Shown here piece after piece: positions 51,847-58,612 of a DNA stretch of 64,000 bases. Position 1 is the first letter of the stretch. Each line of letters begins with the position of its first letter. The notes under the pieces are model-generated. The model searched no databases, had not been told where the DNA came from, and saw only the letters and a program-made list of their open reading frames with translations. The position numbers and the translations under genes are program-made. Source of the stretch: Erodium maritimum (lineage: Eukaryota; Streptophyta; Magnoliopsida; Geraniales; Geraniaceae); assembly GCA_963921825.1 (NCBI GenBank), contig OY997591.1, positions 41,375,825 through 41,439,824 on the forward strand, written 5' to 3'.

Positions 51847-53302
51847 CTATTGGGTCTCGAGGTAGGGTTGGAGATGAACCAACTCGCAGCGGAAATCAAT
51901 GAAAACCAAGAGATGATTAAAACCATGAAACAACTAACAAAGAATGGATTCACAAGAGAAAAAATCAGCACTATTTCTTACCAAAACAAGAGCATCGATT
52001 AACGAATGATTGGCTTGAGTCTCCAAGATGCCTACGTATCCACATGGGAATCAAAGCCACGTAGTTCTTCACTTTGAGGACTCAAGAACACAAAAATGGA
52101 GGTGGGAGATTGCCAAACCCGAAATTGTAGGGAGAGAGGGAGAGAAGTTGTGTTTTCTATTCTTGTCTTTTGTTTGTTATGTTAATAAAAATGACTTAAA
52201 CATAACAACCCCCATACTTGTCCAACTAAAGGCATGGGACAAGCATGGTGACAAGTAAGGTGTAAATAGGACAAAATATGATTAGATAAGATGGGGTTAG
52301 GTGGTGAATCACCAACACCTTAATCCTTGTCATGCTTACTTAATACTAATTAATCAAGACTTGATTAATTAGTTCCATGGGCCTTGGTTGCATGGGCCTT
52401 TCATGGGCCTCTTGGAACATGGCCCGTGGCCATTTCCAACGAGGTCCCGTGATTCGCTCATCGCCTCCAAGCCTTCCATACCGAAAATGTCCAACATTAT
52501 CCAACGCGATCAATCCCAAGACTCAAAGACTTGTCTCGATCCGTAAAGTCCTATTCACTTACGGGCACATGACCCAAAACCCAGTTTTGGTCATGTCCCG
52601 AGACAACTCCCTTTTGGCCATTCTCCATAAATGTGTCAATCAGTTTCACCCTCCGGTGTGACCCTTAGGTTTATGCATGCCAATAGATCAACGTAAAATC
52701 CCATTTTACTTGTACCTATTTAAGTGGCAACTAACGAGACTTTAGTATTGCCTGACACTGCATAACGAATCGACCCTATCGATTCTAACCTTTCCGTCGT
52801 CTATGTCACAATCCTTTTATCTCCGATATCCTGATTGAGATAAGACATAGGGTCGTCATCCTTATTATTGTCAATCACTGTTCCTTGATATGTGAGATGA
52901 TAGAATATATGATACCCAATATCATGTGCATGACCATGTTATTCTTTCAGTCACTCTCGATCAAGCGACCAAGAACCGATATCTTTCCCATACTTCAGTA
53001 TGAGGGATAAATCCCTTAGCCGTCTTTTGTGTCACTCATGTAGCCCGTCCCCAAGAAAATCCTGGCCGTTATGGAAGCCCTATTACGGACAACGTTAGGC
53101 TCAGGTCAAACTCAGTTATTGACTACATAGCGATCACAAAGACTCCTTGGTCTAAGGATACATGACAAGCTACGACACTAAATATGTTCATGACTTAATC
53201 TATGGCACATATTCAAGGCGGGTCGTCCAATATCATGTCTCACATGATATCTATGATCAGACTCCGGAATCTCATTCCAATGACTAACAGAACGTAAGCC
53301 AT

Positions 53303-53859
53303 TGTAGGATATAGGGGTTAGTATATCAACAATAAATAGATTCTTTCACTCTAAAAAAAAACAATAAACGGATTCATAAAGATAATAATAGAAATTGTAA
53401 AAAGGAATTTAGAATAACCTTTACCGATCAACTAGCTTACTGATTAGGATTAAGGAAATTGGAGTTTAATCGAGGCGTGATACTCCACTTTCCTTAAGAC
53501 ACTTATTGCCACGTATGGGCAACGGTCTCCCAGGATACAACGATTAACGTAGGCGAACTCAAAACCGTCGAGAAAGTCACCAAGAACAAGGGAGTGTAGA
53601 GAAAGATGAAGGAGAAACCATTTTAGTGATGGTTTTTGATGTGGGTAAAATAAGACTAAGCAAGTGAATATATATAGCCCTTTTAGAGGGGCAAGATGGG
53701 GAATTCAAAGGGTGACAAGTCCTTTGAATTCCTCATGGAATTGATTGTCAATTAATCCCATAATTCACATTGAATTAGTCTTTAATTTTGTTTAAATCAG
53801 AATTTTAATAAAAGGATTAATATGATATTTACCATCATATTTTTCATTATCATCCAACA
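53303..53859 (-). repeat. Left LTR of the palindromic element, 557 bp
   Basis: Plus strand runs TGTAGGATATAGGGG to ATCATCCAACA. It is the inverse of the right LTR, with about 90 bp of extra sequence in scattered indels (for example 53350-53400 and 53625-53680). It has TG...CA ends. Confidence 0.88.
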
Positions 53860-54739
53860 ATCCCCCACAAAAATGTGATGGTGAAAGAGAGGATAACGAG
53901 GAGGTGGTGACTTCTCAAAGTCGATATCTGCATAGGATAGGTAGATGTTCATCCTTGAACCTTCCCTTGCGAAAGTATATTTAATCTGTTGACTGACTAG
54001 TAGACGCGATGTCCTTGAACTATTATGTCGTTTATGCAAATGATAATATACCCCACACAGATACCAACACTAACGGTTTTGGTTCTCATGGGTGTGCCCG
54101 TTATGGTCATGGGCACTGCCTGGTTCTGCAAGAGTTTACGATGACTAGCCCCATTAGCCACCCATGAAGCGACCCCACTTCCTCTCACATAGGTGATTCA
54201 CTTTGCTCAATACTCTTGATGCAAGGAATCATTAAAAGCAATGCTTATCCTCAACATGTCACTGGTTTTGCATCATAGGAATGAACCAGGGGTTAGACCC
54301 CCACAGTGACCGTACACGGTTTATGCAATTAGGTTGTCCCATTGAAAAAAATGGAAATCGAACGAGCAAAGAAGGAGGGGGCGCTGGTGCGTTGCTGCGT
54401 GAACTGAAAAATAACCCTAATTTTTTTTTCGTTTGAGCTGCAGCAGTGTACAAGCCCAAGTTCAAGGAAAAGAAAAAAAAGGGACCAGCCCAAGCATCAA
54501 AACAGAGAATTGCGTCACGTATGCGCGCGGGCGTGGATGGTTGCGCGGGTCAGAAGCTGATCCGGTCGGGCATGGGTTGTGGGTCGCTGGCGTGGGCCCT
54601 GGAGCAGACCATGTCCGGATCTGGTTACGGGTCATCCGACCCATGTTGGACAGATTTTTTAAAAAAAAATTGAATTTTCTTTTAAAGAAAATCAATGTTG
54701 CTTCAAGAATTTTTTCTTTCAAACAGAAATTCAAAATTC

Positions 54740-55440
54740 TTGTACGAGTTTGAATTTATATGGAATTCATGATCGAGGGAAATTAAATTGGAATTTTTAT
54801 TCCTAAACGTTTTTCCCAAAAAGAAACAAACTTGGAATTCAATTCCTAAACGAGTTTCTTCAAATTTCAAGAATAAAAAAAAATTTCTTGAACAAATTTT
54901 GAATTCATACGGAATTCATGGTCGAGGGAAATAAATATGGAATTTTAATTCCTAAACGTTTTCCCAAGAGAAGCAAACTTGAAAGTCAATTTTGAATTCA
55001 TAAGGAATTCAAAATAGAGGGAAATAAACTTGGAATTTTAATTCCTAAACGTTTTCCCAAAGGAAACAAACTTGGAATTCAATTCCTAAACGTGTTTCTT
55101 AAAATTTCAAAAGGAAAACAAATTGGAAATAATTTTCCTAAACGGTTTTCTATTTGAAAAAAAAACGTATTTTCCACAACGGATCGTGGAAAATAAAAGG
55201 AAAAAGAAAAAAAAATAACGTTTGTTTCAAGATTAATTTCCAAAGAAACTAAATACTCTTGAACATATTTCGAATTCATACAGAATTCATGGTCGAAGAA
55301 AATAAACTTGGAATTTTAATTCCTAAACGTTTTTCCCAAAAGAAACGAACTTGGAATTTAATTCCTAAACGTGTTTCTTAAAATTTCAAGAAGAGAACAT
55401 ATTGGATGTAGCTCCTAAACGGTTTCTTATTTTCCAAAAG
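54740..55440. repeat. AT-rich repeats in the centre of the palindromic element
   Basis: Four imperfect units begin near 54748, 54897, 54990 and 55268. They share GAATTCATACGGAATTCATG and GGAATTTTAATTCCTAAACG cores. They are non-coding; small frames in this area are chance. Confidence 0.8.
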
Positions 55441-55889
55441 GGAATTTAAACATCTCCTTAGAAAAACGGTATTTGTAAAATTGAACGATCTTGTTTCTTG
55501 GAAACACGTATAGATGATCAACAAACGGATTCGTGACATTCGCAACGTAAATCTTATTCGGTTCTAAATGTAGAGCACGTACGAATGAGAAGTGTTTCAA
55601 CGAATTGAAAACTATACGATCAAAAATGACAAACTGAATACTATAAAAGATCGAAGTGGATCCAAAAAAAAAAAACAATTTGATCATCGAATGTATCGAC
55701 TTCTCATTGATATGATTAATTTGATCTTTGTTCAATTAATCGATTTTTGTTTCGTTGTGAAACACGGTAGAATGATTAAACTTGGACTCTCAAAATTTAA
55801 TTGAGAATGAAAAATCAAAGTTTATTTTATGCCCAAATTGATTAATCTCAATCTTGGACAGCTACGGGAAAAAGGGAAACCTTTTGCAT

Positions 55890-56770
55890 AAGTACCCGTC
55901 AATGTGGGGGTCGATCCCATTACTAAAGAGAAATTCTTGACGAAAAGTTCTCGGGTAACCAAGATTCGTGTCCAAGTTATGTGTGCATAATAAAGCATCA
56001 ACTAATAAGGCACGGAACTTGAGTCAACACGTGTCATTGACATACCAACTGATCTCAAACGAGAATTATTGTCTTTTGATCTTTGAAAAGTTAAATCGAG
56101 ATTTAGTTGGACAAACATCCAAGGGAATGTGACCAATACCCATACCATTTAAGGCGTTATGTGAGGGGAAACCCAACCTAGTTGACTGGAGATCCCAAGA
56201 TCTAGGTTCAATGGGCCAACTTAACTACATAAACCTTATAAGGTCATTGCGGGGGAACCCCATGTCCATTCCTATGATGTAGAAATAGTGACATAAAACG
56301 TGTTGAGGATTCCGTGATACAAGTTATTTCAATTTTCGATAAATACTTGTAAATGTGGGGGTCGGTCCTACTACACGGAATATTTCCGATCAACTAAGAT
56401 CTGTGTCTACGATATACGCGTATAATTCAGTAGCTACTAATAAAACACAGAACTTGAGTTGACACAACAACTGATCTCAAACGAAAGTCATTGCCTTTTG
56501 ATATTTCAAAGGATAACACCACGGATCCGCTAATCTAAACGTTAAATTGAGATCTAGTTGAGAAAAAAGACATTCAAGGGAATGTGACTGAAGCCCATTT
56601 AAAGGCTTTATGCGAAGGAAAAACCCAACCTAGTTGACTGGAGATCCCAAGATCTAGGTTCAATGGGACAACCTAATTGCATAAACCGTGTACGGTCACT
56701 GTGGGGGTCCAACCCTTAGTCCATTCCTATGATGCAAACGAGTGACATGTTTAGGATAAACATTGCTTTT
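55890..56770 (+). repeat. Direct repeat of about 440 bp in the palindromic element
   Basis: 55895-56330 and 56340-56770 share an ordered series of blocks: AATGTGGGGGTCG, CTGATCTCAAACGA, CCAACCTAGTTGACTGGAGA, CCAAGATCTAGGTTCAATGG and a GGTCA(T/C)TG(C/T)GGGG block. Similarity is moderate. The second unit merges into the right inverted arm, and its end is what the left arm duplicates in inverse. Confidence 0.75.
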
Positions 56771-57143
56771 AATGATTCCTTGCATCAAGAGTATTGAGAA
56801 AAGTGAATCACCTATGTGAGAGGAAGTGGGGTCGCTTCAAGGGTGGCTAGTGGGGCTAGTCATCTTAAACTCTTGCAGAACCAGGCAGTGCTCATGACCA
56901 TAACGGGCACACCCATGAGAACCAAAACCGTTAGTGTTGGTATATGTGTGGGGTATATTATCATTTGCATAAACGACAGAATAGTTCAAGGACATCGCGT
57001 CTATTAGTCAGTCAGCAGAGTAAATATACTTTCACAAGGGAAGGTTCAAGGATGAACATCTACCTATCCTATGCAGGTATCGACTTTGAGAAGTCACCAC
57101 CTCCTCGTTATCCTCTCTTTCACCATCACATTTTGTGGGGGAT

Positions 57144-57609
57144 TGTTGGATGATAATGAAAAATATGATGGTTGTCATATTATTTTCTAATTTATTAAAA
57201 TTCTTATTAAACAAAATTTAAAGACTAATTCAATGTGAATTTATGGGATTAATTGACAATCAATTCCATGAGGAATTTAAAGGACTTGTCACCCTTTGAA
57301 TTTCCCGTTTTGCCCCTCCAAAATGGTCTATCTTTCTTCTTTCTCTCCACTCCCTTGTTCTTGGTGACTTTCTCGACGGTTTTGAGTTCGCCTACGTTAA
57401 TCGTTGTATCCTGGGAGACTGTTGCCCATACGGGGCAATAAGTGTCTTAAGGAAAGTGGAGTACCATGCCTCGATTAAACTCCAATTTCCTTAATCCTAA
57501 TCAGTAAGCTAGCTGATCGGTAAAGGTTATTCTAAATTCGTTTTACAATTATATTATTATTATTATTATGAATTTGTTTATTGTTGATATGCTAACCCTG
57601 TATCCTACA
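57144..57609 (+). repeat. Right LTR of the palindromic element, 466 bp
   Basis: TGTTGGATGATAATG to GTATCCTACA, directly preceded by a TTTTGTGGGGGAT polypurine tract, the classic plant Copia 3' junction. It contains a (TTA)n run at about 57550-57570. Confidence 0.9.
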
Positions 57610-58612
57610 GCCATAAATAGTCATCTTTCATACTAGTCGCTTTTAGTGAAACTTTGTTGACTAAGGACCCATCGAGTGTGATCTATCTCGATCTATGGTT
57701 CTATTTGCATTGTGGTCATAGATCAGATCACACATCGATATATTACTCCAACACATAAGTAATATAAAGCCGCTTTAATTTTATTGCTCACGATGATATA
57801 TACATTAGGACATTTTGGATTGAACTACGGGCACTAAGACTAACAATTCGGTAATTAGGTTGATTGAGCTAGGCGTAGCTAAGTAAATAGAGTCTTACTT
57901 ATGCTTACGTATTACCAGAGTCTCATGATTCGTTACTTTATGCATTTCTCCTTGATTACCGAAATCATCTTGATTTATCGTGTTTGCTTTTCAATAAGTG
58001 AACTAGGCGTAACTAAGTAGATTCGCCAATTTATTTAGTCTTACTTATGCTTGTGTATTACCAGAGTTCGTGATTCGTTCCTCTATTTACTTCTCCTTGA
58101 TGATCGATGTTTTCGGTCATTAGGACGTTGAACTAGGCATAACTATATAGATTTGTCGCTTGGTGTAGCTATCTCTACTTTTCGTAGTTGGTAGTGAGAA
58201 TGACATGCATTCGTTGTTGTTATTTCTTATTCTAGGACCATAATGAAAACACTATTTTATTTACCCATCTGTAACCATGTCATGCGTTAATTAGAAATTC
58301 GTGTTTACTTGTACCCGTGACCGGCTCGTTGTCTGAATCAATAATTTTGTATCTTAGGTGGTAGCACGTACATATTTTCTTTTCTTTTTGTTTAAAACTC
58401 AAACAAACTTTTACTTTTTTGCCTTTATTTTCCTATTTTGGGGATGTGGAAGTGGCAACCCACGTCCCATGGTTTTAGCAAGAATACTAATGGTAGGTCA
58501 ACTCCATGTGGGATTGACCGGTATTTAACCGTCAAATATATTGCTTGATGACCGTGTACTGATGCACGTAAAAGAAGGATTTGACCTATAGTCATCACCG
58601 CTCATCACCAAG

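Follow-up and report, generated by a model that had tools for sequence, protein, structure and literature searches.

An inverted LTR retroelement in Erodium maritimum with a U5 terminus at both outer ends and two likely parents

In a 64,000-nt stretch of the Erodium maritimum genome (the window, C4:41375825-41439824; assembly of 763 Mb in 40 contigs), we identified an LTR retroelement whose two LTRs lie in opposite orientation, at positions 53303-57609, with the U5 end outward on both. Its inverted arms, recovered by a repeat search in the window, are 85-96% complementary. The element is a real, precise and unusual insertion, and the explanation best supported is insertion of a cDNA that already carried a U5 end on each side. 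Judged on their LTRs, the two arms likely derive from two different parents (here called A and B), with the qualification that the internal part does not reject a sister relationship. The components of the locus are as follows.

53298-53302, no strand: left copy of the target-site duplication GCCAT, which is present once in the empty site of the sister LTRs
53303-53859, minus strand: left LTR, 557 bp, U5 end outward (TGTAGGAT...), containing close to that end 32 bp absent from the 34 other aligned LTR rows
53860-53873, minus strand: polypurine tract adjoining the left LTR, the reverse complement of TTTTTGTGGGGGAT
53860-54346, minus strand: 3'-terminal internal sequence of putative parent A, 487 bp, delimited by the inverted-arm match and the junction search
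54346-54347, no strand: private junction between putative parent A (minus sense) and putative parent B (plus sense), where 39 of the 39 other scored matches end
54347-56658, plus strand: internal sequence of putative parent B, beginning by extrapolation some 1.2 kb from the start of an ordinary element, with no long reading frame
56659-57143, plus strand: 3'-terminal internal sequence of putative parent B and partner of the left arm, from the inverted-arm match
57131-57143, plus strand: polypurine tract TTTTGTGGGGGAT preceding the right LTR, read from the sequence
57144-57609, plus strand: right LTR, 466 bp, U5 end outward (...ATCCTACA), lacking 60 bp that the left LTR has, a deletion private to it in the 35-row alignment
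57610-57614, no strand: right copy of the target-site duplication GCCAT, likewise single in the empty site of the sister LTRs

The geometry is thus that of two 3' ends pointing outward. The outer termini read TGTAGGAT on the left and ATCCTACA on the right, and inward of the LTRs lie polypurine tracts (ATCCCCCACAAAA on the left, TTTTGTGGGGGAT on the right) that form part of the matching 3'-terminal internal stretches of 487 bp (53860-54346) and 485 bp (56659-57143). A first-pass annotation, made from the window alone, had described opposite LTRs with inward polypurine tracts, about 0.5 kb of matching internal sequence and the LTR 3' end at both outer termini, all of which is seen here; its start for the right LTR is corrected to 57144, and its head-to-head geometry to two outward-facing 3' ends. 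The LTRs are unequal in length because the right one carries the 60-bp deletion and the left one the 32-bp insertion, each of which occurs in no other row of the 35-row alignment.

Between the arms, the sequence of 54347-56658 largely follows the interior of ordinary family members in collinear order. The ordinary element L012 runs on beyond the junction point into the 5' internal region and then the 5' LTR; the window element has neither the 5' LTR nor the start of the 5' internal region, and an inverted arm of 1.04 kb stands in their place. Matching to L012 ends at element position 1311, paired with L012 position 1455, which by extrapolation would put the junction some 1.2 kb inside an ordinary element. 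From 54347 onward, ordinary copies align poorly in a local alignment, and no microhomology at the junction can be read from it. The longest listed frame in the element is 106 codons, and the element looks noncoding.

The footprint of the insertion is clean. The first-pass annotation had noted GCCAT on both flanks and an empty site readable in sister LTRs, and had proposed a single integration with two U5 ends. GCCAT is indeed present at 53298-53302 and 57610-57614, and when the flanks were joined at a single GCCAT they aligned to four sister LTRs of the window over 730-733 columns at 90-94% identity, gapless in two cases and with one gap in the other two; a fifth, diverged sister copy aligned over 411 columns at 80.5% identity with 8 gaps. 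In a 120-base comparison around the joint, all five sister LTRs carry a single GCCAT. Three of them align without gaps, a fourth has a single gap, and several occur in the fifth (79%); no gap is at the joint, where the flanks abut. An exact 5-bp duplication, exact LTR termini on both sides and a clean empty site argue for one integration of a two-U5 molecule, as the annotation had suggested. Mis-assembly is very unlikely as an explanation, because the target duplication is exact and the arms are distinct (6.1% apart), and the junction is sharp and private.

We then compared the two arms with each other, as the first-pass annotation had recommended, and with their relatives. Their LTRs are 8.9% apart (41/463) compared with 1.3-2.8% in seven ordinary elements, the internal arms are 3.9% apart and the whole arms 6.1%. 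In a tree of 34 LTRs, from which one distant row (L033) had been dropped beforehand, the two LTRs of all seven ordinary elements pair as sisters (support 82/85 to 100/99), and the right LTR of the window element falls inside a six-member clade (98/98) that does not include the left LTR. Forcing the LTRs of the two arms together costs 34.9 log-likelihood units (AU test, p=0.016), and when the LTR is divided where the deletion of the right LTR ends, sister arms are rejected on both sides (AU test; U3, p=0.0003; R-U5, p=0.007). For the internal 487 bp (20 rows, L053 dropped), sister arms are not rejected (p=0.353), and an 18-row tree over the full arm length, built without L033 and without the closest LTR relatives, for which only the LTR was available, joins the arms weakly (65/86). 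An earlier FastTree of the arms had placed the left with L009 (0.915) and the right with L016 (0.768), a result that the later arm-long tree did not repeat.

Over the internal sequence, where the arms are 3.9% apart, the left arm has 9 of 19 other copies closer to it than the right arm, and the right arm has 7 of 19 closer to it than the left arm, with four more level. Searches with the U3 agree with the LTR trees. Among the best 40 matches to the left-arm U3, the best other is at C4:68083651 (96%, or 93% in a separate alignment) and the right arm ranks 26th by score at 89%, partly because its deletion shortens the match; by identity, eight other copies stand above it and two are level. Among the best 40 matches to the right-arm U3, the best others are at C3:21297239 and C9:41150366 (95-96%), and the left arm is 11th at 91%, with nine other copies above it. 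Late copying of one arm from the other was also considered and found no support: in 22 columns both arms go against the majority, but 19 of these lie in one U3 stretch and are mostly shared with L009 and L016, and only two are found in no other of 17 copies.

These comparisons bear on one origin that the first-pass annotation had put forward, a palindrome self-primed from one cDNA; on this reading the arms would have diverged since. The internal arms, at 3.9% apart, not rejected as sisters and weakly together in the one arm-long tree, would suit a fold-back of this kind. Monophyly of the LTRs is nevertheless rejected in both LTR halves, and the nascent minus strand would need to find on itself a stretch that was still uncopied. 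Since the LTRs of the arms appear to descend from different family members, self-priming is unsupported and, in our judgement, highly improbable.

The junction between the arms appears to be private to this locus. We searched the genome with a 201-base query across it and scored the best 40 of 407 candidates; only the window itself continued beyond query position 101, and all 39 other scored matches, the right arm included, stopped exactly at 54346/54347, so that the inverted junction was seen in none of the 39 other matches among the best 40 of 407. From four genome searches, with the best 40 candidates of each scored, we also pooled at least 82 distinct LTRs, leaving aside the later searches with the right LTR and the U3 of a complex locus on C3. 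Within 12 kb of each other, LTRs of this pool form 15 direct rows, one of which is probably the interrupted LTR of the C3 locus, and three inverted rows, which comprise the window locus once and the C3 locus twice; 49 of the at least 82 LTRs have no partner among the matches listed. Because the junction is private among the best 40 of 407 and pooled LTR pairs are otherwise direct, we see no transposing palindromic family of the kind that had been raised as a possibility, and the window element looks like a single event rather than a spreading family.

Ordinary copies of the family have direct LTRs, the arrangement that the first-pass annotation had proposed to look for in relatives, and are about 4-8 kb in length. 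The window element shares with them LTR ends of the form TGT...ACA, the polypurine tract TTTTGTGGGGGAT and a 5-bp target duplication; it lacks a direct LTR pair with a 5' LTR leading into the 5' internal region, and its own two LTRs are not mutual closest relatives on the LTR trees, as they are in 7/7 ordinary pairs. Exact 5-bp duplications flank six of the seven ordinary elements (L009 AGGAG, L010 CAATC, L011 CATCT, L013 GAACA, L014 CTACT and L015 CCTGA), the exception being L012, in which the first LTR bases are altered, and L016 has an intact AATCC duplication. Of 12 further LTRs, five are flanked by a 5-bp duplication, four of them 3' LTRs and one a 5' LTR, where none is expected. Coding capacity is slight: at the locus of L015, an 8-kb relative, a single frame reaches 110 codons or more, with 130 codons, and inside L012 a single frame reaches 100 codons or more, with 100. 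The usual tRNA primer site is expected to begin TGG; the 5' internal region just inside the 5' LTR of L009, L012, L014 and L015 begins ATCTTAAGACACTTA instead. Two further arrangements were observed among the relatives. In a related 7-kb copy (L052, 194-1057), the U3-side LTR match passes straight into internal sequence, as if the rest of the 5' LTR had been deleted, and at C5:43780761-43781836 two family LTRs lie in the same orientation about 12 bp apart.

The best reading of the window element is a one-off accident during cDNA synthesis that involved two parents. In retroviruses, the minus strand starts from a primer, is transferred to the 3' end and proceeds through U3, the polypurine tract and the interior, with the plus strand starting from the tract (PMC3187697). 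The course of events that we think rather probable begins with a noncoding LTR family that would be copied by enzymes supplied in trans, as the lack of coding capacity seen in the family suggests. RNAs of two different copies, A and B, would have been co-packaged, and the nascent minus strand of A would have copied U5, R, U3 and the polypurine tract, followed by 487 bp of internal sequence. It would then have switched to the minus-strand DNA of B and been extended on it in plus sense to B's U5 end, and a plus-strand start at A's polypurine tract would have completed the other U5 end. The product would be a double-stranded cDNA with an ordinary U5 end on each side, presumably inserted once by integrase with the normal 5-bp duplication that forms the observed footprint. 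Two normal U5 ends would thus account for exact termini and an exact duplication around an element that nonetheless has a private junction in its interior. Pausing at a hairpin was considered for the switch point, but the sequence there folds no better than shuffles (z +0.48 to -1.03). None of the open-access texts consulted shows an integrase using two U5 ends in plants.

Strand switching during reverse transcription is not the only way to join two parents. Two double-stranded cDNAs of different copies might have been broken and then linked end to end by host end joining before integration, which would give the same anatomy, namely two parents, two U5 ends and one target duplication, and the sequence does not separate this route from strand switching; it requires two internal breaks, after which both outer ends must still be correctly paired with integrase, and we consider it unlikely. 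Two parents would likewise be expected if two elements had inserted independently in opposite orientation and the whole of the intervening sequence had then been deleted. In that case, however, the same five bases must have been hit twice, given that the flanks abut with one shared 5-mer and no host base lost or gained, and nothing at 54346 marks an element terminus for the left arm, since matches end there inside internal sequence. We regard such a history as very unlikely.

The strongest rival that dispenses with two-U5 integration is inverted templated repair, in which an ordinary B element inserted at GCCAT would later have had its 5' LTR and the adjoining 5' internal part replaced, during break repair, by the inverted 1.04-kb 3' end of A. 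A junction of short homology at the LTR edge is conceivable, as the U3 start TGTTGGAT and the U5 end TGTAGGAT share TGT and GGAT, and L016 carries, inside its 5' LTR, 300 bp copied from its internal sequence in inverted form. Yet the left junction must have struck the first few LTR bases and the donor must have begun at its very end, and the divergence of the L016 patch (7/297) is about equal to that of the L016 LTRs (13/432; mismatches, gaps excluded), so that the patch need not be post-insertional repair. The patch itself lies at 390-686, inside the 5' LTR, beside a TA-rich stretch. The first-pass annotation had argued against a later rearrangement from the exactness of the breakpoints; this still holds in that the exact left terminus makes a repair route unlikely, indeed quite unlikely in our estimate, but the argument is weaker than stated because TGTTGGAT and TGTAGGAT share 7 of 8 terminal bases.

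At the C3 locus (C3:18476798-18485214; L054, L055 and L022), the LTRs face inward and expose a U3 end on each outer side. Match positions suggest that about 2.5 kb interrupt the plus LTR, and the U5 end of this LTR abuts reversed internal sequence; the right LTR faces the opposite way and has the usual 5' internal sequence inside it. The flanking five bases are alike at four of five positions (TTATA / ATATA). The U3s of the locus are 94% alike, at least five other copies scoring higher, four of them with higher identity, and the plus LTR is absent from the best 40 scored matches in a search with the whole C3 right LTR. The locus may be a mirror form of the window element with two U3 ends, and it can as well be two insertions. 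By base count, the breakpoint at C3 (L055, 17-25) and the left-arm breakpoint at window 54346 lie at nearly the same place, at most about 7 bases apart, in two copies of a direct repeat of 92 bp in the internal sequence, which in the window occupies 56164-56255 and 56616-56707.

A broader proposal would be that switches from one strand to its complement recur when this noncoding family is reverse transcribed, giving two-U5 cDNAs as in the window and two-U3 cDNAs as at C3:18476798-18485214, that integrase accepts either pair of ends, and that patches of the L016 type arise likewise. For recurrence, the evidence is the C3 locus and the L016 patch; each is ambiguous, and we hold the proposal to be doubtful; the single two-parent accident remains our preferred reading of the window element.

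The window element resembles noncoding LTR retrotransposons of the LARD/TRIM type in its LTRs, polypurine tract, 5-bp duplication and absence of a long reading frame. It differs from the ordinary copies observed in this genome, which carry direct LTRs and measure about 4-8 kb, in having no 5' LTR and no start of the 5' internal region. The closest parallel to the proposed origin is found in template-switching complexes, two-member chimeras with a single 5-bp target duplication, for which a pre-integration switch from one co-packaged RNA to another has been given as the cause (Sabot and Schulman, 2007; PMC1950507). A two-copy chimera, here judged on LTRs, and one 5-bp target duplication are common to both. 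The complexes of Sabot and Schulman are head-to-tail, about 12-17 kb long by their coordinates, and have an internal third LTR, two complete cores and highly similar outer LTRs, whereas the window element has inverted halves and two LTRs, with no internal third, and its outer LTRs differ and present U5 at both outer ends; by analogy, it shares the logic of these complexes as an inverted two-U5 variant. Bursts of Onsen in Arabidopsis (PMC5668417) show frequent recombination between family members that is explained by co-packaged RNAs, and high-frequency exchange within a family and the assumed co-packaging of two RNAs are points of likeness with the case proposed here. The Onsen products described, in contrast, are ordinary recombinants, and words beginning inverted-, palindrom- or orientation- were not found in that text. 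No inverted two-U5 LTR element came up by title or opening of the abstract in searches of an open-access library, which lacks most subscription papers, so that the absence is weak evidence.

In the window element, a genome preserves the natural record of an integration whose two ends were apparently both U5 and whose molecule apparently derived from two parents. Annotation tools keyed to direct LTRs may miss such elements, and their frequency may therefore be undercounted. If our reading is true, an integrase serving a plant-type LTR element does not depend on a U3 end paired with a U5 end, and inverted molecules competent for integration can arise when synthesis changes strands between cDNAs made from co-packaged RNAs.
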